DNA of 64,000 nt, taken from Reichenbachiella sp. 5M10 (GTDB lineage Bacteria > Bacteroidota > Bacteroidia > Cytophagales > Cyclobacteriaceae). Every line of letters begins with the position of its first letter. Positions within the stretch are counted from its first letter, which is position 1. A model generated the notes under the pieces. It saw only the letters and a list, made by a program, of their open reading frames with translations. It did not search any database and had not been told where the DNA came from. Shown one piece after another: positions 6,239 through 24,661 of this stretch. A program made the translations under genes and the position numbers. The stretch spans positions 4,220,501 through 4,284,500 of the forward strand of contig NZ_MDGR01000007.1 in NCBI RefSeq assembly GCF_002742335.1. Reading direction: 5' to 3'.

Positions 6239-8164
6239 ATGAATTGGAAATATAAAAAATGGATGAGCTGGTGCTGTGTAGCACTCAGCTCATTTTCTTT
6301 GGCACAGGCCCAAACCTATCGAATCGATCAAATCCCAGATAGCCTCAAAGAAAATGCAAATGCGGTATATCTCATTGACGAAGTAACCTTCGAAATCATC
6401 GACGAGAAGAAAGCTATCTACCACAGCCATCAGGTGATAGCAATCCTAAATGCCAAAGCCAAAAGACTGGCGTCTGAAACCATAGGCTATGACAAACTCA
6501 CCAAAATCAACTCGTTTACAGGCAAGCGCTACGACCAATTTGGCAAATTGGTCGCCAAATCCAAAAAATCCGATATCTACGACAGAAGTGCTACATCGGG
6601 GGGCACGATCTTCGACGACAGCCGCTATCAACATTTGGATCTGACTCAAAATCAATACCCATACATTGTAGAGTTCGAATATGAAGAAGAACGTGCATAC
6701 ACCTATTCGATACCGGATTGGTACATTAGCCCCACTTCAAATCTAGCAGTTGTAGAGTCAAACTATACAGTCATCGCACCAGATGAACTACAACCAAATT
6801 TCAAACTCGTGAATACAAACAAAACACTCAACATAGTCAGTCAGGACGGAATCACCACGTCGAGCATTTCTTTTGCTCATGTCAAAGCTGTGGAACACGA
6901 ACCCTATGGGCCACCTGTCTCGGATTTTACCCCCGTGATTTACGCTTCTCCTTCGGCGTTCCACTATGATGGATACAGCGGCGATTTCAATTCGTGGCAC
7001 AACATGGGACTGTGGCAACTTAGCCTCAATCAAGGAAGAGGAGACCTAAGCCAAGCGACGGTTCAAGAGGTCAAAGCACTCACCACCAATCTCAGTACTG
7101 ACGAAGAAAAAATCAAAGCAGTCTACCAATACGTCCAAAACAAAACACGCTACGTCAGCATCCAACTCGGTATAGGTGGTATGCAGCCCTTCCCTGCCAG
7201 CACGGTAGATGAATTGGGCTATGGTGATTGCAAAGCACTTTCCAATTATACGCACGCACTATTGCAAAGCATCGGGATAGAATCCTACTATACGCTGGTC
7301 TATGGTGGGGATCGTCCTCCTGTTAGACAATTAGATTTTGATTTCCCCGTAGATGTTTTCAACCACATCATTCTATGTGTCCCCAATCAACAAGACACGA
7401 TCTGGCTCGAATGCACGAGTCAAACCAACCCCTTTGGCTACCAAGGCGAATTCACCGGAGACCGTGATGTACTACTGATCACGCCCGAAGGGGGAAAAAT
7501 TGCACATACCACCATCTATGACAAAACTGTCAATCGCCAAGAGAGCTATGCCACAGTCCAGATACTAGAAGACGGAAATGCAACGGCAAAACTTCAAATC
7601 AAATATTCGGGTTTGCAATACGAAAACGGCAACCTAAACTGGATCATCAACGATGGTGATGAAAAACTTGAAAAGTGGATATATAAAAACACGGACATTT
7701 CTGAATTTCAAATCGTTGATTTTGATTTTGTCGAAACCAAAGACAAAATCCCTACGATCACAGAGACTGCACAACTCAACATTCGTGCTCTTGCGGCGGA
7801 CCAAGGCAAACGCCTCTTCATCACACCCAACCTCATGAATCAATGGAAGACCAAACCCAAGCGTGTCAAAGACAGAAAAACAGACATGGTTTTGACATTC
7901 GAATATACAGACATGGACAGCATCGTCTATCAGCTACCCGAAAAATACCACATCGAGTATCTACCCGAAAGCACGAGCATAGAAACACAGTTTGGCACCT
8001 ATCAGAATAGCTATCAGTTCGAAAACCACCAACTGATCTACACACGGAGACTTGAGAAGAACAAAGGTCGATTCTCCAAAGAAGCATACGAGGAGTACCG
8101 CCAATTCTGCGAAGACATCATCCAAGCCGACAAAGGCAAGGTGGTATTTGTGGATAAGACCTGA
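6239..8164 (+). CDS. DUF3857 and transglutaminase-like domain protein
   Basis: A 641-residue paralogue of the preceding gene, starting three bases after its stop, so the two form an operon. A signal peptide ends near ..FSLAQAQ. DUF3857 spans roughly residues 55-230, then a transglutaminase core with the nucleophile motif YGDCKALS (Cys about residue 329) and FNHIIL (His about residue 375). The third catalytic position, usually Asp, looks like Glu (IWLECTSQ). Unlike its neighbour it may be catalytically active, as peptidase or transamidase. The substrate is unknown. A symmetrical hairpin follows the stop. Confidence 0.87.
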   Translation: MNWKYKKWMSWCCVALSSFSLAQAQTYRIDQIPDSLKENANAVYLIDEVTFEIIDEKKAIYHSHQVIAILNAKAKRLASETIGYDKLTKINSFTGKRYDQFGKLVAKSKKSDIYDRSATSGGTIFDDSRYQHLDLTQNQYPYIVEFEYEEERAYTYSIPDWYISPTSNLAVVESNYTVIAPDELQPNFKLVNTNKTLNIVSQDGITTSSISFAHVKAVEHEPYGPPVSDFTPVIYASPSAFHYDGYSGDFNSWHNMGLWQLSLNQGRGDLSQATVQEVKALTTNLSTDEEKIKAVYQYVQNKTRYVSIQLGIGGMQPFPASTVDELGYGDCKALSNYTHALLQSIGIESYYTLVYGGDRPPVRQLDFDFPVDVFNHIILCVPNQQDTIWLECTSQTNPFGYQGEFTGDRDVLLITPEGGKIAHTTIYDKTVNRQESYATVQILEDGNATAKLQIKYSGLQYENGNLNWIINDGDEKLEKWIYKNTDISEFQIVDFDFVETKDKIPTITETAQLNIRALAADQGKRLFITPNLMNQWKTKPKRVKDRKTDMVLTFEYTDMDSIVYQLPEKYHIEYLPESTSIETQFGTYQNSYQFENHQLIYTRRLEKNKGRFSKEAYEEYRQFCEDIIQADKGKVVFVDKT

Positions 8165-12794: not shown

Positions 12795-14606
12795 TTATTG
12801 ATAGTTGCTGTCTCCTCTCAAACGTCTGAATCGCTTGCGGGCTTCTGATACATAGATGCTCCCTGGATAAGTCAATAGAAAATCTTTGTACACATCCATT
12901 GCCTGTTCTTTGTTTAGCAGATTTTCTTCCAACACTTTGGCTTTAAGAAACATCGCATCATCGCCATAGATGTCATTCCCATATTTGGTTTCAATAACCT
13001 CGAGATTCAACAGCGCATTCTCAAATTCTCCCAATGTCATATTCACTTGTGCAAGCTGCCAATAGATCTCATCTGTGAGTGAGTGACCTGGATAATCCAC
13101 GAGCATTTGTTGGTATTTGGTTTTAGCCTCGGTGAGTTTGTTTTGAAACACGACTCGCTCAATATCAGCGTACTTTTTTAGCACAAAATCAGAGGTATCC
13201 AATGCCGTGTTATTCTGTATGAGTAGACTCAGAGACATGGCATCATTGGCAATCTCCTTAGTCGTTGCATTCTTCAAAATATCCAAGTGACTTTTTGCCA
13301 GTTCAAAATTGCCCATAAAGTAATTGAGCTGTGCATTTTTAAACTTGGCTTCATAGCCAATCTTGCTAGACTTGTTGGTTTTTTCTACTTGTGAATAAAG
13401 CAGAGTCGCTTCCCAGGGCTCATCTATGAGAATATAGATGTCACCAAGATCCAATTTGCTCATGGATTTGATACGTAGATCGGCACGAGGTATTGAGATG
13501 ATTTCGTTGAGAATAGTAATCGCCGAATCCTTCTCGTCAAGATAGAATGCATGAAGAAGGGCCTTTTGACGATAAGCTTCAAGTGTTTCTTGGTTCAAAC
13601 CCATTTCGCGAATCAACTGTTGATAATCAGTTGTCAATTTTCGGATAGCTGGATAATCAATAGGAAAGGTACTCTTAACTTTCTCTTGACGCACTTTGAT
13701 CAATTGCTGTCGTGCCGAAATATAAAAACGACTCTCTGGCATGTTTTCTACTATGTACTCAAAAATCTCTTCCGCCTCGACAAAATTTCCATTGGTCAAT
13801 GCAATCGCTCCTATATCCATGAGTCGGTAACCATTTTCTTTCATACGCTTGGTGATGGCCCGTGCTTGAATGAAAGCACCATGAAAATCCTTCTGCTGCA
13901 AAAAGGCCCAAATGAGTAAATCAGAATACATGTTATCATTGGGGTATTTTTGAATATTGACCAAAAGCGTTTTTTGAAAATTGGTCATGTCTTCTTCATC
14001 CTGTAGGATATTCTGCAATAGATTTTTGACATAACGCAAATTTTGTGGCCTGAGCGAAGCGAAGGCGAGATATTCGTTGACCATTTTTTCTTTCTCGCCT
14101 AATATACGATAAGCATTCGCTAGCTCTAAAGCATAATCTTCTGGATTGCCACTATGCTTTCTCCCTTCAAGATATGTTTGCTTAGCAAACTCGGTGAGTT
14201 GTTTACTGATAAAATACTGCGCAGCAGTGCGGATCAAAAATCCGTTGCTCCTGATATCAACAATAAGTTGTTCATATATTTTATTCGCTTGATCCTCATG
14301 ATTGGTCGCTTTGAGATAGATTCCTTCATCTATTCTATAATAGACATTCGAAGGGTATTGTTTCAATGTTTTTTTGAGATATTTTTCCAACGTACTGTAC
14401 TCGTTGAGAGTCATCAGCACATTAAAATAGTTGTTGTGGATATCTGGTATGTTCACAGAGTTTTTCGCCAGCTCGTCGTAGACATCCTTGGCCTTTGCGA
14501 AATCTCCGTTGACGTAGTATTCATTGGCCAACTGGATCTGTTGATTATTTTGTGCCGCGGCAAGCCCCGGAATTAATATTGCTATGACAATTAAGATTTT
14601 CTTCAT
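12795..14606 (-). CDS. Exported tetratricopeptide repeat protein
   Basis: A 603-residue protein with a signal peptide (MKKILIVIAILIPGLAAAQ) and a body of helical TPR-like repeats; recognisable units include NEYYVNGDFAKAKDVYDELA near the start and YLAKV/YPGHSLTDEIYWQLAQVNMTLGEFENALLN-type units near residues 510-580 (quoted in parts). TPR proteins are scaffolds; no enzyme domain is visible. Its start codon lies at the left edge of the proposed origin, so its promoter must lie within or next to the DnaA-box region and could be affected by DnaA binding. The partner is unknown. Confidence 0.85.
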   Translation of the reverse strand: MKKILIVIAILIPGLAAAQNNQQIQLANEYYVNGDFAKAKDVYDELAKNSVNIPDIHNNYFNVLMTLNEYSTLEKYLKKTLKQYPSNVYYRIDEGIYLKATNHEDQANKIYEQLIVDIRSNGFLIRTAAQYFISKQLTEFAKQTYLEGRKHSGNPEDYALELANAYRILGEKEKMVNEYLAFASLRPQNLRYVKNLLQNILQDEEDMTNFQKTLLVNIQKYPNDNMYSDLLIWAFLQQKDFHGAFIQARAITKRMKENGYRLMDIGAIALTNGNFVEAEEIFEYIVENMPESRFYISARQQLIKVRQEKVKSTFPIDYPAIRKLTTDYQQLIREMGLNQETLEAYRQKALLHAFYLDEKDSAITILNEIISIPRADLRIKSMSKLDLGDIYILIDEPWEATLLYSQVEKTNKSSKIGYEAKFKNAQLNYFMGNFELAKSHLDILKNATTKEIANDAMSLSLLIQNNTALDTSDFVLKKYADIERVVFQNKLTEAKTKYQQMLVDYPGHSLTDEIYWQLAQVNMTLGEFENALLNLEVIETKYGNDIYGDDAMFLKAKVLEENLLNKEQAMDVYKDFLLTYPGSIYVSEARKRFRRLRGDSNYQ

Positions 14607-14988
14607 GAATGCTTTTCCACACTTTTCTTCTTCTCTTTAATATTATATAAGATTATAAATAAACTATTATTATTTACTATCTGTGTAGATATGTTGATAA
14701 GTCAGTGGTTGGATAGAGAGTGTGAAGGACTCGTTTATTAGTCCACGGTTAAGTACAACTTATCTACATTCTAACTTATTGATATTTAAGGATTAATATA
14801 GTTTTCCACACTTATTTTTCTTTTGTTGATTACTCAATTGTTCATTTGGGTCATGCATATTATTTGTGGATATGTTCGACTTTTGGAAAGTTATCCTTGG
14901 GGTCAGTGAGTGATCTGAAGTTGGTTGGTATTTGTTGTGATTTAGTCCACACATTGTTACGGCTGTTTTCACGAGTTATCCACAGAGT
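14607..14988. other. Probable chromosomal replication origin (oriC)
   Basis: A gene-free 382-base stretch with DnaA-box-like 9-mers: TTATCCACA at 14976-14984 (exact), ATATCCACA at 14865-14873 (- strand), TTATCTACA at 14760-14768, TTATCAACA at 14692-14700 (- strand), and TTTTCCACA at 14613-14621 and 14802-14810; each of the last five differs from the consensus by one base. An AT-rich unwinding-type stretch lies at 14636-14680. In sampled lines G/C counts on the + strand favour C on the left (21 C, 4 G in 3541-3600) and G on the right (19 G, 9 C in 15181-15240; 22 G, 9 C in 16081-16140); 12.8-14.6 kb is mixed. mnmG, an origin neighbour in many bacteria, is 2.6 kb away. I see no gene in it. Confidence 0.8.
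14636..14680. other. AT-rich DNA unwinding element candidate
   Basis: Forty-five bases with only three G or C, between the DnaA-like boxes at 14613-14621 and 14692-14700. Such stretches are where the duplex opens at bacterial origins. The assignment follows from its place within the proposed oriC. Confidence 0.6.
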
Positions 14989-16749
14989 TTAGAACATGAC
15001 CTGGATGTTTTCAATTTCCCAGTTGGCACGTATATCGAATCGATCGGTATAGAAGTAAATAGGTTCTGGTGCCACCTGTAGAGACAAATTGCCATGAGAC
15101 CAGATACCATCTTTGTTGATATCAATGAGTACTCGAAGACTGTAGTTACCTGGTTTGACATAGGTAAAGGTAAACTTCTTGGGGTTGTGCAACTGTGCAA
15201 ACACTTTGTGATCCTTGTTGACGAGCTGTAGAATGTAGTGTGTATGATCTGTGATAACTTCACCTGAGACTTTGCCATAGTTCTCCGGATTTTTGAACGA
15301 ATACGTTCGATCCAATTGATCTACAGTGTCGCTTTCTAAACTTATAAACGTGCCTTTAGGAAAGATATAGGTCAAGTGATCAGTATTCAGGCGTTCGAGG
15401 TATTTTCGTTGCTGCATTTTGAGAGTGTCCATTGAGAGGCTGTCCATTGAGAGGCTGTCCGTGGCGTCAAGCGTGGAATCGATGATGGTCAATAACAAAC
15501 TATCCACATGGGTTTGAAAGTATCGTTTGTCTAGAGTTTCATGGATGGTGAGTTGCGTATGATTGGTGTTCCATGTGAAAAGACTATCAGGCATGTGTTG
15601 TGCGATCAGTGTATCGTAACGCCTTGTGATACTGTCTTTATAAAATGCTGTGATGGGCTTGGTGAAGTATAGACTGATGTCAAATGTTTGATCTACTGAA
15701 GCCTTATCCTTAGGATTTACACTGTAGTTTAGTTTTTCGGGTTTGCGTTTGCTTTCGGTAAACTTGACATATACAGTATCTCGAATCTGGTTGTAGACCG
15801 TATCCTTGGCGGTGAGTATAATTCCAAGGCTGTCCTGATCATATCTGTAACTGGAGTCATGATACATTCTGATGATTGTGTTTTCTTTGATTTTGTTGTT
15901 TTGTGGTATGGGCAAGTTTTGAGTAGTATCGAGTTTGGTCAAGGTGTATTCTTTGATGAATTTGTTGTAAAGAATATCGAAGTAGGAACCAGTTTGTTTG
16001 GATCGAATCTTTTTGAATGTATTCACATTGAGTAGCTGTATGAGTATGTCTTGCTCACTTAAATGACTATACAGGTTGATGGAATCTTTGATGAAGCCGT
16101 GGGGCTCTGTGTCTGGTTCGCATTTGAGGTTGTTGTTGGCGTCTTCGAATGCATAGATGAAGTAGTATCCTGTTTTGATGTTTTCAATGCGATAATATCC
16201 TGAAGTATCTGTTTTGGTGAAGTACCTTGGTTTTCCTGTTAGGATGTTGAGCGTATCTTTGACTGCATATAAGGCTACAGTGGCTTTTTCTATTTTCTTG
16301 TTGGTGTATTGATTGTATATATGACCTTCGACGCTTATCGAATCTATGTAGGGTCCAGTAGAAAAAGCTAAGGTAAAATTCTCAACGGGGTTTTTTTCGG
16401 TTAGATCTACTACTCCATCGGAGAAATTGAAGGTGTAGGTTGTACTGTCTTCAAAGTCTTCTTCAAATTCAATGAAGAGTTCGTCTTTCTTGCTTCTAAA
16501 TTTGTAATTGTTTTCGATAAAAGGAGTAATGATGAGTTTTTGTTTGAGTTTGCTGGCATCTATCCTTTCGCTAAATGAGAAATGAAATTCTTTTCCTTTG
16601 AAGTTGATGGACTTGTGTTCTGGATTGCTTTCGAGCAGTATAGGTGGAATGGTGTCTTTAGGCCCTCCAGTAGGCGAACCTTGGGTAGCGCATGAGTATA
16701 TGTATAGGGAGATTATACTGAGCAGAATGGGTAGAAGTGCTTTTCTCAT
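14989..16749 (-). CDS. Lipoprotein with SbsA/Big_5 Ig-like domain
   Basis: A 586-residue envelope protein. The signal sequence ends in the lipobox IYSCATQ (Cys about residue 19), followed by GSPTGGPKDTIPPILLES and an Ig-like Big_5/SbsA domain (about residues 35-135). A carboxypeptidase-regulatory-like segment follows (about 140-220) and the rest is beta-rich. This architecture is common in Bacteroidota and has no assigned function. A short in-frame tandem duplication (DSLSM units) lies near residues 430-440. It overlaps the methyltransferase gene by four bases and its stop lies five bases right of the exact DnaA box at the origin. Confidence 0.85.
   Translation of the reverse strand: MRKALLPILLSIISLYIYSCATQGSPTGGPKDTIPPILLESNPEHKSINFKGKEFHFSFSERIDASKLKQKLIITPFIENNYKFRSKKDELFIEFEEDFEDSTTYTFNFSDGVVDLTEKNPVENFTLAFSTGPYIDSISVEGHIYNQYTNKKIEKATVALYAVKDTLNILTGKPRYFTKTDTSGYYRIENIKTGYYFIYAFEDANNNLKCEPDTEPHGFIKDSINLYSHLSEQDILIQLLNVNTFKKIRSKQTGSYFDILYNKFIKEYTLTKLDTTQNLPIPQNNKIKENTIIRMYHDSSYRYDQDSLGIILTAKDTVYNQIRDTVYVKFTESKRKPEKLNYSVNPKDKASVDQTFDISLYFTKPITAFYKDSITRRYDTLIAQHMPDSLFTWNTNHTQLTIHETLDKRYFQTHVDSLLLTIIDSTLDATDSLSMDSLSMDTLKMQQRKYLERLNTDHLTYIFPKGTFISLESDTVDQLDRTYSFKNPENYGKVSGEVITDHTHYILQLVNKDHKVFAQLHNPKKFTFTYVKPGNYSLRVLIDINKDGIWSHGNLSLQVAPEPIYFYTDRFDIRANWEIENIQVMF
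15431..15460. repeat. 15-bp tandem duplication inside the Ig-like lipoprotein gene
   Basis: ATTGAGAGGCTGTCC occurs twice in a row (15431-15445 and 15446-15460), with a degenerate third copy just before it. It keeps frame and encodes repeated Asp-Ser-Leu-Ser-Met. The exact identity suggests a recent slippage event. Confidence 0.85.
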
Positions 16750-17629: not shown

Positions 17630-19492
17630 TTATCTTGCCATATAGACCATGAGAACTGAAATATCTGCAGGATTGACGCCACTGATTCTTGAGGCTTGTC
17701 CGAGATTCGTTGGTTGAATCTTAGATAGTTTTTCTTTGGCCTCTGATGAGAGTGCTGGTATTTCTTTGTAGTTGAAATTGGACGGTATTTTTTTGTTGTC
17801 TAAATCACCCATTCTGTCTGCTAGGCTTTTTTCTTTTTCTATGTATGTTTCGTATTTGACTAATATAGCAGCTTGTTGTATGACCTCTGGTGTCAGTTCA
17901 TTTGCTTTGTTCTGTGCATCTGGATGTAGCTTGAGTATGTCATCTATTTCGAATTCTGGTCTTCTCAAGAAATTGATGATTGGTGCTTTTTCTTTGATGA
18001 TAGCTGATCCATGTTTTTCTAGTATGGGATTGACTTCTTCTGGTTTAACTTTGATTTTTTTGAGATCAGCGATGAACTGATCTGTTTCTTTTATCTTTTG
18101 ATTTACTCTTTCTAATCTTTCTTCAGAAGCTAAACCTAGTTGATGTCCAAGTGGAGTTAATCGTACATCCGCATTGTCTTGTCTGAGTAGTATCCGGAAC
18201 TCTGCCCTTGAAGTGAACATACGGTAGGGTTCGTTTGTTCCTTTATTGATAAGATCATCGATGAGTACCCCGATGTAGGCGTCGGATCTGTTGAGTACAA
18301 AATCTCCTTTGTCGTGTATTTTGTTGTGTGCATTGATACCTGCCATGAGTCCTTGACTGGCTGCCTCTTCATATCCGGTAGTTCCGTTGATTTGTCCTGC
18401 GAAGTATAGACCACTGATTAGACGTGTCTCTAAGGTTGCGTTGAGTTGTGTCGGTGGGAAGTAGTCGTATTCTATAGCATATCCTGGTCTGAACATTTTG
18501 ACATTCTCAAACCCAGGTATTTTTGTAATGGCTTTGTACTGAACATCTTCTGGTAGGCTGGTGGAGAATCCATTGACATATATTTCTACAGTATTCCATC
18601 CTTCTGGTTCGACGAATATTTGGTGTCGATCGCGTTCAGCGAATCGGTTGATTTTGTCTTCGATTGATGGGCAATATCTTGGACCTAATCCTTTTATCCT
18701 TCCAGTGAACATTGGGGATTGCTCGAATCCTGTTTTGAGTATTTCGTGTACTTCAGGATTGGTATATGTGATATGACACGGTCGTTGATTCACAAGAGAT
18801 TTGGTATCAGTGAATGAAAATTTTCCAGGATCAGTATCTCCGGGTTGTTCTTCCATCACATCCCAATTGAGGGATCTACCATCTACTCTAGGAGGTGTAC
18901 CGGTTTTCATTCTGCCTGATTCAAATCCAAGTTCGATGAGTTGTTCAGTTATACCTGTTGCTGCCTTTTCTCCTGTGCGTCCACCTCCGAAGCGTTTTTC
19001 TCCAATGTGTATGATTCCGTTGAGAAATGTTCCATTGGTGAGAACAACTGATTTTCCTTTTATTTCTATACCCATAGAGGTTCTAACGCCTTTGATATGA
19101 TTGTCTTTGACAATCAATCCAGTGACCATTTCTTGCCAGAAGTCTACATTGGGTGTTCGTTCTAGTGCGAGTCTCCATTCTTCTGCAAAGCGCATGCGAT
19201 CGTTTTGTGTACGTGGACTCCACATGGCAGGTCCTTTGGATTTGTTGAGCATCCTAAATTGTATCATGGATTTGTCAGATATGATACCGGAGTATCCTCC
19301 TAACGCGTCTATCTCACGTACGATCTGTCCTTTTGCAACGCCACCCATTGCGGGATTGCAAGACATCTGTGCTATGGTGTTCATGTTCATGGTGATGAGC
19401 ATGACTTTTGAACCCATGTTGGCAGCTGCAGCGGCGGCTTCACAACCTGCATGTCCTGCCCCTACTACTATTACGTCGTATTCTGGAAACAT
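17630..19492 (-). CDS. mnmG: tRNA uridine-5-carboxymethylaminomethyl modification enzyme MnmG (GidA)
   Basis: A 620-residue FAD protein that works with MnmE (TrmE) to modify U34 of certain tRNAs. The FAD-binding motif is VIVVGAGHAGCEAAAAAANMG (residues about 6-26, given in part), and family landmarks are SCNPAMGGVAKG, RTQNDRMRFAEEW and GRTGEKAATG. The length is normal. mnmG was named gidA for its place beside oriC in Escherichia coli, and here too it lies within 3 kb of the proposed origin and directly beside two parS-like sites. It is transcribed toward the origin. Confidence 0.97.
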   Translation of the reverse strand: MFPEYDVIVVGAGHAGCEAAAAAANMGSKVMLITMNMNTIAQMSCNPAMGGVAKGQIVREIDALGGYSGIISDKSMIQFRMLNKSKGPAMWSPRTQNDRMRFAEEWRLALERTPNVDFWQEMVTGLIVKDNHIKGVRTSMGIEIKGKSVVLTNGTFLNGIIHIGEKRFGGGRTGEKAATGITEQLIELGFESGRMKTGTPPRVDGRSLNWDVMEEQPGDTDPGKFSFTDTKSLVNQRPCHITYTNPEVHEILKTGFEQSPMFTGRIKGLGPRYCPSIEDKINRFAERDRHQIFVEPEGWNTVEIYVNGFSTSLPEDVQYKAITKIPGFENVKMFRPGYAIEYDYFPPTQLNATLETRLISGLYFAGQINGTTGYEEAASQGLMAGINAHNKIHDKGDFVLNRSDAYIGVLIDDLINKGTNEPYRMFTSRAEFRILLRQDNADVRLTPLGHQLGLASEERLERVNQKIKETDQFIADLKKIKVKPEEVNPILEKHGSAIIKEKAPIINFLRRPEFEIDDILKLHPDAQNKANELTPEVIQQAAILVKYETYIEKEKSLADRMGDLDNKKIPSNFNYKEIPALSSEAKEKLSKIQPTNLGQASRISGVNPADISVLMVYMAR

Positions 19493-19509: not shown

Positions 19510-19525
19510 TGTTCCACGTGAAACC
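19510..19525. promoter_or_regulatory. parS-like ParB-binding site
   Basis: TGTTCCACGTGAAACC matches the widely conserved parS sequence TGTTTCACGTGAAACA at 14 of 16 positions, with the CACGTG core intact. It lies in the 78-base gap between ybeY and mnmG, 21 bases from a second site. Confidence 0.75.
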
Positions 19526-19545
19526 TTTTTCGACGATCGATGAGG

Positions 19546-19561
19546 TGTTCCACGTGGAGCA
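19546..19561. promoter_or_regulatory. parS-like ParB-binding site
   Basis: TGTTCCACGTGGAGCA is a near-perfect palindrome with the parS core CACGTG; it matches the degenerate form TGTTnCACGTGnAACA at all but one fixed position. Paired with the site at 19510-19525, its placement near oriC is that expected for a centromere. Confidence 0.75.
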
Positions 19562-19570
19562 CTTGTTGTG

Positions 19571-20002
19571 TTATATTTGAAATTGCGGCAAAGATAAATA
19601 AGCATTCTCTTTTTCTCTCATCTCCATTTTTTGACTCTCTGTCTTGTCGTTGTATCCGACAAGGTGAAGTACTCCATGGATGAGGACTCGTTTGAGTTCC
19701 GTTTCGAATGCAGTGTCTTGTTGTTGAGCGTTTTCTCTTACCCGATCTATACTAATGAATATGTCAGACTCTACATGCTTTTCCTCCTCTGAATTGTCAA
19801 AGGTGATGATGTCTGTATAGTAGTCATGGTCGAGGTAGTCTATGTTGACTTGTCTTAGGTACTCATCCGAACAAAAGATGTAGTTGATACTGGTGAGTTC
19901 GTATCCTTCATTTTGAATACAGTGATGTATCCAATCTTGTAGGGTTGCTTCTTTGCTAATAGTGAAGTCAGTATCCTCGTAGAAGAAATGAATTTCGTGC
20001 AT
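19571..20002 (-). CDS. ybeY: Endoribonuclease YbeY (rRNA maturation factor)
   Basis: A 143-residue metalloprotein that acts in rRNA 3'-end maturation and ribosome quality control. The metal motif is HGVLHLVGYND (about residues 108-118): the first two His are present, while the third ligand, His in Escherichia coli, is Asp. I believe this change is usual in Bacteroidota, so it does not suggest loss of activity. The start codon shares bases with the stop of the anti-sigma-like gene upstream (ATGA). The two parS-like sites follow its stop. Confidence 0.93.
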   Translation of the reverse strand: MHEIHFFYEDTDFTISKEATLQDWIHHCIQNEGYELTSINYIFCSDEYLRQVNIDYLDHDYYTDIITFDNSEEEKHVESDIFISIDRVRENAQQQDTAFETELKRVLIHGVLHLVGYNDKTESQKMEMREKENAYLSLPQFQI

Positions 20003-20403
20003 CAGTGGATGTAAAAACTAAGTTGGACTCTCTTTCCATCATCCTCAAATTTGACTTCATCACATAGATTCTTCATTAGGAAGATGCCTCGACCGCCTGG
20101 TTTTTCTAGATTTTCAGGTGCTGTAGGATCAGGTAATGTGTCATAGTCAAAGCCCTCACCTTCATCCTGAATAGTGAACAGGATGAGACTGTCTTCTAGC
20201 TTGAGAGACAAATCGACGTTTTTATCCTTGTCTGACTTGTTGCCATGTACGATAGCATTGTTGACGGACTCTGTCACAGCGATCATGATGTTGCCATAGA
20301 TGTCATCGTCAAATTGGAATTTCTCTTTGGCATTGTCAATGAAGCTTTCGATGATTCGAATGTTTTCTGACAGTGACGGGATCTGAATTTTAATGGCGTC
20401 CAT
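20002..20403 (-). CDS. Anti-sigma-factor-like ATP-binding protein (RsbW/SpoIIAB type)
   Basis: A 133-residue stand-alone GHKL ATPase. The N box is AVTESVNNAIVHGN (about residues 42-55), the G1 box DEGEGFDYDTLPDP, and the G2 box GGRGIFLM. This is the fold of serine kinases that phosphorylate anti-sigma-antagonist proteins. No STAS partner or sigma factor lies beside it; it sits between DUF4175 and ybeY in a tight cluster. Its role here is inference: switch kinase, or ATP-dependent regulator of an envelope process. Confidence 0.88.
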   Translation of the reverse strand: MDAIKIQIPSLSENIRIIESFIDNAKEKFQFDDDIYGNIMIAVTESVNNAIVHGNKSDKDKNVDLSLKLEDSLILFTIQDEGEGFDYDTLPDPTAPENLEKPGGRGIFLMKNLCDEVKFEDDGKRVQLSFYIH

Positions 20404-20432
20404 TGTTAATTGTTTTAGCGGTCACAAATATA

Positions 20433-23400
20433 TTATTGTTCATTTAACCTTTGGAAGTATTTATTTACTTCTTCCTTGTAGTAAGGGTTCATTTTAGGGG
20501 GTAATGTCTGCAACAACTCCAGTTCGGATTGTTTGGTTTTGATGTATTCCTCATATTTCTTGGCTGTGTTGTGGATTTCTTCTTGTGCTGTTTGTGCTTC
20601 TCTTTGTTGATCGAGTTCTCGTTCTCTTAGTGCATCTTCGGATTGTAGCATCTTAGTCAAGATGTCTTGTTGGCGTTGTATGGTTTGTTGCGTGATGTTC
20701 TTATTGACGAGATCTGTTTCGGTTTGTTCCATCTTTTTGATGATGTCTTTTAGATTGTTTGAGAGTCCTTGGTCCCCATTATTGAGCTCATTTTCTATTT
20801 GTTGGAGCTGTTGACGTATCATTTCTTGTTCTGCAGCGAGTTCTGCTAATTCTTGAGAGAGTGGTTTTCCTGTTTTGCCACTTTTCTTTAGGTCTTGAAT
20901 TTTCTTACTGAGTTCTTGTTGGAGCTGTGACATGCTTGGCATGGGCTTTTTCTTGCCTTTTTGTCCGGGCTGTGGCATGCCCATGGATTCTGCCATTTGC
21001 TGCTGCAATTGTTGTAGTACGTCGTTGAGAAGCAAGGCGAGATTGTTGATGGAGGTCATTGTGTATTGTTGATTGACTACCGCATCATTCTTTTTGCGAT
21101 CTTTCATGCCTTGCAGACTGGCTTCAATATGGTTGTTCATGGCATCTAGTTCACGAGTGACGAAACTTTGTATCTGAAATACCCTACTAGCCAATGAGAG
21201 TAAACTGTCCTCAATAATGACTGCATCATCTCGGAGTTTGAGTTGTAGCTGAGATAAGGAGACAAAACGGGGGTCGCTTTGATTGACTGCTTTGAATTCT
21301 TCCATGAGATCTTCTTGATCAAAGGATAGCTTGAGTAGGTTGTCGAGTATATCTCGTAGATGATCAAGATTTTCTTGTAACATTTCCATTTCCATTGAAG
21401 TCTGCATGGACTTCATCTGATTGCTGAGACTTTCTATTTGTTCAGCTGCTTTTTGTTGTTGTTCTTGTGACTTTTTGCGTTTGCCTTGTTCTAGGCTTTG
21501 GTTGATTTCTTCTTGAGTTTGGTTGATTTCTTCTTGTTCCGTACTGAGGTCATCTAGTTTTTCGGGTTGGCTGAGCTTTTCATTGAGTTCTTCTAGTTTG
21601 TCTATCTCTTCTTGAAGTTGATCAAACTTTTGGTTGAGCTCCTCTTGATTTTCTTGAGTTGTTTCGAGGTTCGTATCTTTTTCACCTGTTTCTTGTGCGA
21701 GATCAGATTGCTGTTGTTTAAGTTGATCAAGATCTTGGATGATTTCATCCATTTTGTAATCGAATTGCATGCGTTTGAACATTTCCAGAGCGCGTTCTAT
21801 TTCCTTTTCAAGATTCTTTTCCTTTTGTTGAATGTCTTGCATCAATTCGTCCAAATTCGTTTTGCTTTGATCGTCTTGCAATAATTTTTGTAGCTCTTCA
21901 TAAAGTTTTTTTGTTTCTTCATCCAAGATATCTTCCATCAATTTTTGTAACTGTGCGGATTTTTTTTGTAGTTCTGGGTTGGGTTTATGAAATTTATTTT
22001 GCTTTTCTGTCAATTCTTTGTGCTTTTTAGCTAATTGCTGGATGTCTTTTTCGAGCCCTTTTTTGTCTTGTAGTAGGGTGTTTATTTTTTTCTTTTCTTG
22101 CCAGTTGTTGTTATTGTTCTTTTTGAGATCTCGTTGTATCTCTTCTATTTGTTCACGAATGTCTTCTGCTTTGTCAAGTGTCCTATGGATATCTGATTTC
22201 GCTTGAGCAGCAGTTTTTTCTATTTCTGCGTCGATTTCTGTATTATCAGGTAGTTTGAAACTATGTTTTTGAGAGCGTGCTGGTTTGTATCCATTGATTG
22301 CGTCATTGTCGTATACGCGAACATAATAGTGGAGTATTTCTCCAGGGTGTAGATCGATCGAATCTAAGGATAATTGATAAAAGAAGTTTTGAGCGTTGTG
22401 CGATGAGACCAATTGCATAGGTAGTCTTTTGGTTTCCTCATGGACCTCATAGATGAATTCTAAGCTACTAAACCCGTAATCATCCATGATACTTCCAGTG
22501 ACTATTACATATTGGTACAAGGTAGTATCTGATATCGTTTGTAGGTTTATGATTGGAAATTGATCCTTGATTACATCTATTTGATATGAAATGGGCTGTT
22601 TGTTCTTACCGTGCTGATTACGGAGTTGTATTTGATAATCTTGGGTATGGAGGAGCTGTTTATATGCGGTAAATTGATTTTGATGTGGAGATTGCATTTC
22701 GATGGTGTCTTCTGTCATTTGTAAACTGATGCCATTCGATTCTATAGATTCAATTGTCCAGTGCGCTGTGGTTCCTTCGGGTACTGTAAGATTGCCATTG
22801 TTTGAAATCTTAGTGTTTTCTAGACCCGTATACGGGGGATATTGTAATTGTATATTGAGGTTTTTGATGTCTGGTCTTGATCTGACTTCTATCGTATAGG
22901 TTTTGGACTTGTAGTTTCCAGCCAAGATTTGGAAGGAAAAATCATTTTGTACTCTCGGATATTGGTAGTTGATGTGTGTTGCATCACTGAATTTCATTTT
23001 GTTCGTTTTGCCGTGAGCTTTCAAATAGAACTGATCGGGTACGGCCTCTCCTTCTACAACCATCTCAATGGTAAAGGGTTCGTTTTTGAAAGCAACAAAT
23101 GTTTCAAAAGCAGGTTTCACATGAAACAATGCATCATTGTATTCTTTATCGTAGTGGATAATTCGATGGGTACTCTCCGTCAAGAAATGAGGAATAATCA
23201 TGAGTAGCAGTAGTATCAATGCTGCAGGGAAGAGTAAATAGCGTAAATACTTGTAGTTAGTTTTGAGATTTATGCTTGTGTTAAAATCAAAAACCGATAG
23301 TTCGTTTGTACGCTGTTCAATACTTGCTTTAAGTAAAGAGGTTTCTTGGTGGTTTATCTGTAACTGTATAGTATTCAGTAATTTATCATCGAGATTTGGA

Positions 23401-23717
23401 AAATATTTGCCAATTTCTCGCGCAGCATCTTTGTCGCTGATCTGTTTGCTACTGTTTAGATAGTGATAGAGTGGTAGTATGAGATAGCGAATGAGCGTGA
23501 ACAAAAAGGTGGCGAATAATAGGAGCAATAGAGAAAATCTGCCTGACTCAGAAAAGCGAAAGGAAAATTCTAAGCTGTTGACTATAAGATACGAGCTGAG
23601 CAAAACGATGAAGAAGAGAATTCCGTTTTTGATGAGTTTGTTCAAAAACAGTTTCTTTTTATACGCCTGTATCTTTTGTGTTAGTTTGATTGCTCTATGT
23701 TGTGTTTCTTTTTTCAA
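20433..23717 (-). CDS. Large DUF4175-family protein with coiled coils
   Basis: A 1094-residue protein: two hydrophobic segments near residues 30-50 and 60-80 and a third near 158-175, then a beta-rich periplasmic-type part (about 180-490), then a long highly charged coiled-coil region (about 490-1060) very rich in Gln, Glu, Lys and Leu. This matches the DUF4175 family of Bacteroidota, which has no known function. The start codon is TTG at 23717, overlapping the stop of the preceding lipoprotein (TTGA); no in-frame ATG gives a better start. The tight cluster suggests a complex with the lipoprotein and the anti-sigma-like ATPase. Confidence 0.87.
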   Translation of the reverse strand: MKKETQHRAIKLTQKIQAYKKKLFLNKLIKNGILFFIVLLSSYLIVNSLEFSFRFSESGRFSLLLLLFATFLFTLIRYLILPLYHYLNSSKQISDKDAAREIGKYFPNLDDKLLNTIQLQINHQETSLLKASIEQRTNELSVFDFNTSINLKTNYKYLRYLLFPAALILLLLMIIPHFLTESTHRIIHYDKEYNDALFHVKPAFETFVAFKNEPFTIEMVVEGEAVPDQFYLKAHGKTNKMKFSDATHINYQYPRVQNDFSFQILAGNYKSKTYTIEVRSRPDIKNLNIQLQYPPYTGLENTKISNNGNLTVPEGTTAHWTIESIESNGISLQMTEDTIEMQSPHQNQFTAYKQLLHTQDYQIQLRNQHGKNKQPISYQIDVIKDQFPIINLQTISDTTLYQYVIVTGSIMDDYGFSSLEFIYEVHEETKRLPMQLVSSHNAQNFFYQLSLDSIDLHPGEILHYYVRVYDNDAINGYKPARSQKHSFKLPDNTEIDAEIEKTAAQAKSDIHRTLDKAEDIREQIEEIQRDLKKNNNNNWQEKKKINTLLQDKKGLEKDIQQLAKKHKELTEKQNKFHKPNPELQKKSAQLQKLMEDILDEETKKLYEELQKLLQDDQSKTNLDELMQDIQQKEKNLEKEIERALEMFKRMQFDYKMDEIIQDLDQLKQQQSDLAQETGEKDTNLETTQENQEELNQKFDQLQEEIDKLEELNEKLSQPEKLDDLSTEQEEINQTQEEINQSLEQGKRKKSQEQQQKAAEQIESLSNQMKSMQTSMEMEMLQENLDHLRDILDNLLKLSFDQEDLMEEFKAVNQSDPRFVSLSQLQLKLRDDAVIIEDSLLSLASRVFQIQSFVTRELDAMNNHIEASLQGMKDRKKNDAVVNQQYTMTSINNLALLLNDVLQQLQQQMAESMGMPQPGQKGKKKPMPSMSQLQQELSKKIQDLKKSGKTGKPLSQELAELAAEQEMIRQQLQQIENELNNGDQGLSNNLKDIIKKMEQTETDLVNKNITQQTIQRQQDILTKMLQSEDALRERELDQQREAQTAQEEIHNTAKKYEEYIKTKQSELELLQTLPPKMNPYYKEEVNKYFQRLNEQ
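23113..23128. promoter_or_regulatory. Weak parS-like site
   Basis: GGTTTCACATGAAACA matches parS TGTTTCACGTGAAACA at 14 of 16, but the core is CACATG rather than CACGTG. It lies inside the DUF4175 gene, 3.6 kb from the pair near mnmG. Coincidence is possible. Confidence 0.3.
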
Positions 23718-24661
23718 TAGCTCGTTATCTTTTCGAAATAGATGTGTTCGATCTGCTTCGATAGCTTTTCATAGTCTTTTAACCCTTGAAGTGTCCGTGG
23801 AGTTATGAAATACTCTGGATATATGTTGAAAACACCAATTGCGTTCGTTTTTGACGATGAATTGAAAGATTGTTTGATTGATCTTATAATGTATTGATTA
23901 TCAGAACTTAATGAGTCAATTTTTATCAATTTTTTAGAAATGAAAGGCTTATACGGCGTGTTCTCAGATTCATTCCGTACCTCTACCCTGATTTTTGCCA
24001 AAAAACGTGGGTCTAAAACGGCATTTTTTAACTCGGGCAATTTTTGAATTCCTATGGTGATAGTGTCTTCTAAACTATTATGTAGAAGTGTGGTTGTATC
24101 AATTTGTATATCAAGAGAGTCCAAGCCTAACCAGTCTCTACATAGAATGATATCTTCTAGATTGTGGAAGTTTTCAAAAGTATAAAACTCTACAAAGGCA
24201 GTGTTACTTCTAATCGCTTTGAACTCGCTGTATTTATTGGATAGTATTTGGTTTAAAAAATGAACGGACTTTATCTTGGAAGAGTCTCGGGATGACACTT
24301 GAATGATATCAATATTTCTCTCCCGAAACTCATGAAGTATGGCTTCTTCATTTTTAAGGAACCTGAGATTGATAGTTTGGATATTGCTGCTAGAGTCTAG
24401 TGCGTGGAGACGGTAGAGAATATCCGTATCTGCAAGTGTGATTTCGTATGGTGCGGCTTCTTGTTTTTCAATGGGTTGGGAGAGCTCTACGACGAATTGC
24501 TCAGCTATATTTTTGTTTTGTGTAGAATCTAACGTGAGTATACTGCTGGTGAAATTGATGTTGAGTGTTTCACGTGAATCAGATTCAATACTATGCTGGT
24601 CTATATCTTTACACGATATTAGAGCACATAATATGATAAGAGAATGGAGTGTATTGCGCAT
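23714..24661 (-). CDS. Hypothetical lipoprotein
   Basis: A 315-residue protein whose signal sequence ends in the lipobox LISCKD, so Cys17 is probably lipidated. I chose the ATG at 24661; a TTG two codons upstream would overlap the previous gene. The mature part is mixed alpha/beta and I recognise no family. It overlaps DUF4175 by four bases and starts two bases after the preceding gene ends, so it belongs to the same message. It contains a parS-like 16-mer at 24566-24581. Confidence 0.75.
   Translation of the reverse strand: MRNTLHSLIILCALISCKDIDQHSIESDSRETLNINFTSSILTLDSTQNKNIAEQFVVELSQPIEKQEAAPYEITLADTDILYRLHALDSSSNIQTINLRFLKNEEAILHEFRERNIDIIQVSSRDSSKIKSVHFLNQILSNKYSEFKAIRSNTAFVEFYTFENFHNLEDIILCRDWLGLDSLDIQIDTTTLLHNSLEDTITIGIQKLPELKNAVLDPRFLAKIRVEVRNESENTPYKPFISKKLIKIDSLSSDNQYIIRSIKQSFNSSSKTNAIGVFNIYPEYFITPRTLQGLKDYEKLSKQIEHIYFEKITSY
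24566..24581. promoter_or_regulatory. parS-like site within a coding region
   Basis: TGTTTCACGTGAATCA differs from the parS sequence TGTTTCACGTGAAACA at one position only and keeps the CACGTG core. It lies inside the lipoprotein gene, where parS sites are often found in other bacteria. It is 9.6 kb right of the proposed origin. Confidence 0.65.

Follow-up and report, generated by a model that had tools for sequence, protein, structure and literature searches.

The window analysed here is a 64,000-nt stretch at positions 4220501-4284500 of a 4,630,784-bp contig (hereinafter C7), in an assembly of 4,636,242 bp and 12 contigs from a Reichenbachiella-like Cytophagales bacterium. Within it, a gene-free gap of 382 bp and 68% A+T separates two minus-strand genes; it lies directly upstream of the start codon of a TPR-repeat protein gene and probably also holds the promoter of that gene. 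No tRNAs and no Rfam families at gathering score were found in the 64-kb window. The features discussed below are as follows, with coordinates of the window.

12795-14606, minus strand: TPR-repeat protein gene, left flank (Pfam TPR families; match in 54 of 59 genomes)
14607-14988: gene-free gap and predicted oriC, with the TPR gene and the Ig-like-domain gene on its sides (six DnaA boxes, skew minimum, synteny)
14613-14621, plus strand: DnaA box TTTTCCACA, one mismatch; a box is found here in most rows of the genus alignment
14636-14680: A/T-rich 45-mer, 93% A+T, proposed duplex-unwinding element
14664-14681, plus strand: conserved block CTATTATTATTTACTATC, a TAT/TTATT array, DnaA-trio-like (genus alignment; match test over 41 gaps)
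14684-14692, minus strand: DnaA box ATATCTACA, two mismatches, adjoining the A/T block and overlapping the next box by 1 bp
14692-14700, minus strand: DnaA box TTATCAACA, one mismatch; exact TTATCCACA in genomes G001, G004 and G007
14760-14768, plus strand: DnaA box TTATCTACA, one mismatch
14772-14784, minus strand: exact match to the E. coli IHF consensus WATCAANNNNTTR
14802-14810, plus strand: DnaA box TTTTCCACA, one mismatch
14865-14873, minus strand: DnaA box ATATCCACA, one mismatch
14976-14984, plus strand: DnaA box TTATCCACA, exact; TTATCCACA in 8 of 8 rows of the genus alignment
14989-16749, minus strand: gene for a protein with an Ig-like domain (Big_5), right flank (Pfam PF13205; match in 58 of 59 genomes)
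17630-19492, minus strand: mnmG (gidA) (TIGR00136, E 1.9e-258, 858.9 bits)
19510-19525: parS-like TGTTCCACGTGAAACC, two mismatches
19546-19561: parS-like TGTTCCACGTGGAGCA, three mismatches, beside the first site
23113-23128: parS-like GGTTTCACATGAAACA, two mismatches
24566-24581: parS-like TGTTTCACGTGAATCA, one mismatch, the best of the genome

An earlier note on this DNA had counted six DnaA-box-like sites in the gap, one exact at 14976-14984 and five with one mismatch, and our scan returns the same six within one mismatch of TTATCCACA. This number was never reached in 3000 dinucleotide shuffles (mean 0.18, maximum 3). Other 400-bp stretches of the window have two such boxes at most, and the maximum in 720 kb sampled from the same genome is three per 400-bp stretch. 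The 45-base A/T-rich stretch that the note had also described is found at 14636-14680 and is the sole 45-bp stretch of the window with at least 93% A+T.

In an alignment of the gaps of eight congeners, one block changes little; it reads ATAAACTATTATTATTTACTATC here, and after it comes a pair of DnaA boxes sharing one base. Both of these boxes (14684-14692 and 14692-14700) lie on the minus strand and face the A/T block; in relatives the spacer that sets them off from the block is often GC-rich (CCTC, GCAC, GGGC). The boxes at 14692 and 14760, which both face outward, are about 60 bp apart, and the IHF-like site at 14772-14784 comes next.

Outside the gap, the TPR gene itself contains a further one-mismatch DnaA box (ATATCCACA, minus strand, 14435-14443), ~165 bp away from the gap.

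Strand asymmetry, dnaA and parS-like sites

The cumulative GC-skew minimum of the window falls at 14681, within the gap, in agreement with the switch of the plus strand from C-rich to G-rich that had been placed near here by hand counts, and computed skew is likewise mixed over 12.8-14.6 kb, as had been stated. The keto-skew minimum of the window, at 8139, lies outside the gap and does not fit. The chromosome-wide skew check that had been proposed was run on samples rather than the whole contig (36 stretches of 20 kb plus the window, then five more over 1.86-1.96 Mb), and it places a sign change at the gap. Every stretch sampled between 1.955 and 4.235 Mb has negative skew, and every one sampled from 4.235 Mb via the contig ends to 1.84 Mb has positive skew. 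The five stretches over 1.86-1.96 Mb are mixed: cumulative skew peaks at 1,883,235, and from 1.92 Mb onwards skew stays negative. The reverse switch, at ~1.88-1.92 Mb, is thus nearly antipodal to the gap, with replichores of 2.35 and 2.28 Mb, or 2.32 and 2.32 Mb. In relatives, local skew marks the origin less well: over 15 kb on each side of the gap it runs from negative to positive in 13 of 31 genomes and otherwise in 18, and skew sampled along the chromosome is noisy for G045 and G019 and clearer for G035.

One dnaA gene was found, at C7:1274853, 1.67 Mb from the gap. The distance between dnaA and the gap is 0.76-2.79 Mb in all eight chromosome-size contigs for which it was computed (G000, G001, G002, G005, G019, G035, G040 and G045), and a remote dnaA is therefore no objection to an origin in this group. 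In G019, three short matches of equal score to the DnaA AAA+ family (C1:2591131, 3013256 and 4580529), each with an open frame of 243 aa, may be transposon ATPases.

The genome was searched with a parS consensus, and all parS-like calls rest on it. Three sites lie within two mismatches of this consensus in the whole genome, and all three are in the window (19510, 23113 and 24566), 4.5-9.6 kb from the gap edge. The pair of sites at 19510-19561, spaced 36 bp start to start, lies between mnmG and ybeY, just upstream of mnmG, the gene that had been noted as close by and that the TIGR00136 match locates at 17630-19492. A ParB gene is present in the genome. The number of parS-like sites is not above the reversed-pattern control, either in this genome (20 within three mismatches versus 37 per strand) or in 18 relatives (46 within two mismatches versus 59; above control in 5 of the 18), so that the placement of the sites, not their number, serves as evidence.

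This placement recurs in relatives. A parS-like site within two mismatches is present in 17 of the 18 relatives searched. The syntenic gap was found in 15 of the 18, and in every one of these a site of this kind lies on the Ig-like side, with the nearest 3.5-9.5 kb away. In the three non-syntenic relatives the site lies a few kb from the Ig-like gene at a contig end (G018), is not found (G037) or lies elsewhere (G056). Among the best 80 of 383 relatives in a second scan (see below), parS-like sites lie upstream of the TPR gene in 56 of the 65 loci where the sequence reaches far enough, against 0 of 55 downstream, and in most of those 56 loci they lie ~4.8-5.3 kb from the TPR start.

Conservation of the gap in Cytophagales

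The nearest relatives among the matches listed are Reichenbachiella agariperforans, R. faecimaris and R. versicolor (Cytophagales), in line with the order to which the earlier note had assigned this DNA. Across 59 genomes, which are related and not independent cases, as holds for all conservation counts given here, the order Ig-like gene, gap, TPR gene is found in 41, this one included, with 278-1422 bp between the matches. One or both matches are absent in the remaining 18, or the genes are apart or on different contigs. The 41 gaps hold 273 DnaA boxes versus 9.1 expected from shuffles; 39 of them are box-rich, in that no more than 2 of 200 shuffles equal or exceed their count. The densest 400-bp cluster of DnaA boxes overlaps the gap in 29 of 31 stretches (29-64 kb long), the exceptions being G039 and G058.

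A second scan, of named genomes, used a TPR alignment and covered the best 80 of 383 relatives, 76 of which had at least 1.5 kb upstream; this set overlaps in part with the 59 genomes (L270 and G058, for example). Of the 76 loci (from the best 80 of 383 relatives), 72 carry three or more boxes within 800 bp upstream of the TPR gene; the densest box cluster is at the gap in 74, an Ig-like homologue comes directly upstream in 75, and mnmG lies upstream in 65.

The A/T block was followed across the 41 gaps with a pattern written after the genus alignment had been seen (ATTATTATTTATTA, 1-6 bases, then TGTGGAT). With up to three mismatches it matches 17 of 41 gaps, versus none in each of 20 shuffled sets; eight of these matches fall within the genus and nine beyond it, of which all but one (G040, from another family) belong to other genera of the same family. 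With up to six mismatches it matches 34 of 41 gaps on the right strand (shuffle mean 6.7) and 12 of 41 on the opposite strand, which implies that the looser matches are partly due to chance. The exact IHF consensus occurs somewhere in 16 of the 41 gaps, against a shuffle mean of 3.7, and none of 60 shuffled sets reaches 16.

In one group, comprising G039, G058, L267 (a Bernardetiaceae MAG) and L270, the gene order is kept and the gap, which in L267 and L270 lies just upstream of 9001, holds no box within one mismatch of TTATCCACA. parS-like sites are present in the three members searched (G039, L267 and L270). The motif T[GA]TTCA occurs 11 times in the gap of G039, 12 times in that of G058 and 9 times in that of L267, counts that none of 500 shuffles reaches (means about 1); the shuffle figures overstate the case, the motif having been picked post hoc. 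The gap is also the densest place for this motif in both 40-kb stretches tested (G039 and G058). The pattern suggests that the DnaA site itself has changed in this clade.

A second DnaA-box element beside a CLC gene

Elsewhere on the chromosome, at C7:201935-202038 (L022:9935-10038), three exact copies of TTATCCACA lie within 104 bp, two of them pointing at the third. This cluster sits between two genes, 58 bp from the 3' end of one for a CLC-type chloride channel and upstream of one for a thioredoxin-like protein, and is 0.60 Mb from the gap; the corresponding distance is 0.62 Mb in G001, 0.88 Mb in G002, 0.76 Mb in G005 and 0.18 Mb in G045. Among 26 genomes with strong matches to the CLC gene (E 1e-140 or better), 15 have a convergent box pair (TTATCCACA, or TTTTCCACA on one side) that measures 83-87 bp end to end and lies at most 150 bp from the 3' end of the CLC gene, 10 have no pair by these patterns, and G042 has its pair elsewhere. 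A reversed control pattern of the pair gave no matches in 59 and in 35 genomes. Convergent pairs also occur in the oriC gap of G001, G004, G030 and G035, and at further places in G037 and, outside the 26-genome set, in G023, G025, G029, G030 and G033.

An IHF-like match with at most one mismatch is found inside 11 of 17 CLC-side elements (shuffle mean 5.85; 3 of 200 shuffles reach 11). The element of the present genome has no IHF-like match within one mismatch, its best having two. The CLC-side element looks like a site for the control or titration of DnaA, and to our knowledge its nearest known analogue is datA of E. coli, which acts on DnaA-ATP. As described in PMC10380432, datA lies away from oriC and has an IHF site with DnaA boxes on either side. 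The CLC-side element is alike in having boxes on both sides of a possible IHF site and in being remote from oriC; it differs in its neighbours, in having two or three boxes and in an IHF-like match that is moderately above chance. By this analogy, it may be a datA-like control site. Among the matches listed, no title or abstract start concerned a datA-like element in Cytophagales.

The gap as predicted replication origin

We put at roughly 95% the probability that the gap at 14607-14988 is the chromosomal replication origin (oriC) of this bacterium, as predicted from its sequence and surroundings. The sequence features by which an oriC is commonly recognized are found here: a dense intergenic cluster of DnaA boxes lies in 14607-14988, a proposed A/T-rich unwinding element lies beside the boxes at 14636-14680 (as a sequence feature), and the chromosome GC-skew minimum, as sampled, coincides with the gap (window minimum at 14681 plus 41 sampled 20-kb stretches). 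Palindromes resembling parS also lie nearby in a genome with a ParB gene. A dnaA gene next to oriC, which is common and not defining, is absent here, dnaA lying 1.67 Mb off. The earlier view of this locus as a probable chromosomal origin is thereby supported, with parS-like sites, order-wide synteny and the conserved A/T-plus-box block as added evidence. As an oriC it is of an ordinary kind; what it adds is a gene address valid across the order, a conserved block, a second DnaA site and, in one clade, an apparent switch of box.

Three other readings were weighed. The gap could be a DnaA-regulated promoter of the TPR gene, with the true origin elsewhere, as its position directly upstream of the TPR start codon would allow and as DnaA is a known regulator of transcription. 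A promoter alone would, however, not be expected to coincide with a skew minimum that has a nearly antipodal counterpart, to have parS-like sites as neighbours or to carry an A/T block with ordered, overlapping boxes; we regard this reading as very unlikely, and promoter and origin roles can coexist in one gap. The origin might instead be sought in the CLC-side cluster, given its three exact boxes within 104 bp and the similar pair beside matching CLC genes in relatives, but skew is positive in its stretch (L022) and in neighbouring sampled stretches, no site within two mismatches of parS lies near it, and 0.60 Mb separates it from the gap. The skew and the absence of a nearby parS-like site led us to rule it out as an origin, its odds being about one in a hundred by our reckoning. 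The A/T-richness of the gap (68%) might finally produce a box cluster by chance, an explanation that we find scarcely credible in view of the 3000 dinucleotide shuffles, none with six boxes, the box positions common to the genus and the box-rich gaps across the order.

For the gap as oriC, we infer the following course of initiation, from the binding of DnaA and the choice of the block that melts to the bending protein and the action of ParB. DnaA would bind the box cluster, and from the overlapping pair at 14684-14700 would load onto the T-rich strand TATTATTATTTACTATC of the A/T block, so that the duplex would open at about 14636-14681. At 14772-14784, an IHF/HU-type protein that bends DNA may draw the outward-facing boxes together. 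Helicase loading would then give rise to two forks, meeting at about 1.88-1.92 Mb of the contig, and ParB on the parS-like sites at 19510-24581 would separate the new origins.

This arrangement resembles that of E. coli oriC (features described in PMC8235120, PMC10380432 and PMC10225481) in its nearness to mnmG (gidA), in an A/T-rich unwinding element with TTATT on the T-rich strand followed by a spacer and a facing R1-like box, and in an IHF site among the boxes, which is here predicted from sequence. It differs in that the two boxes by the A/T block overlap by 1 bp, that the flanking genes are others save for mnmG nearby, that parS-like sites are close and that dnaA is 1.67 Mb off.

A second comparison is with the basal unwinding system (BUS), defined in PMC8287927 as a DnaA box, a spacer and at least three NAN triplets, mostly 3'-GAT-5'; in B. 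subtilis its polarity is set by a 5' tail with trios adjoining the boxes (PMC8287927). The rule of the same paper asks for three or more NAN triplets, correctly oriented, no further than 16 bp from a box that has two mismatches or fewer. The gap fits it (AAC TAT TAT TAT, spacer 10), and so do 154 of 300 shuffles on one strand or the other. With about half of the shuffles fitting, the rule was dropped as evidence and we make no claim of BUS membership; it is the conservation of the block that indicates that the block matters. Like the BUS of Bacillus subtilis and Helicobacter pylori, which is made up of DnaA boxes, a GC-rich spacer and DnaA-trios, the gap has tandem boxes, a short spacer, triplets with a middle A and boxes on the 3' side of the strand. 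The BUS of those species favours 5'-TAG-3', whereas the array here reads TAT TAT TAT T TAC TAT, with a one-base break; TAG adjoins the spacer in some relatives (e.g. G006, G012 and G026). The block in the window resembles the E. coli TTATT motif as much as it does DnaA-trios.

No literature joining DnaA-trio, Bacteroidetes and oriC was found, and among the matches listed no title or abstract start dealt with this origin architecture in Cytophagales, subscription papers and DoriC lying outside the scope of the search. A database origin prediction for some of these genomes may well exist already. Within the same order, plasmids labelled oriC are in use in Cytophaga hutchinsonii, according to PMC5288383.

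It is possible, if on balance doubtful, that Cytophagales share one ancestral initiation system, in which a fixed origin address (Ig-like gene, oriC, TPR gene, with parS near mnmG) would be combined with a distinct unwinding module (the TAT/TTATT array and two boxes overlapping by one base), a remote and conserved convergent box pair beside the CLC gene that would reset DnaA as datA does in E. coli, and a box switch to T[GA]TTCA in the clade that includes the Bernardetiaceae MAG.

For an order with little experimental origin work in the literature searched, the gap offers a short, exact and testable origin. The gene address (TPR start, Ig-like end, parS near mnmG) can place the origin in draft genomes, including those with weak skew, and would aid the construction of oriC plasmids and estimates of growth from read depth. 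With the CLC-side element there is a candidate for a DnaA-control site outside Proteobacteria, and the apparent box switch in one clade provides a natural experiment on the co-evolution of DnaA and its site. The gap, with similar boxes and a likely partition site close by, recurs in many relatives across the order, which makes their origins directly testable.
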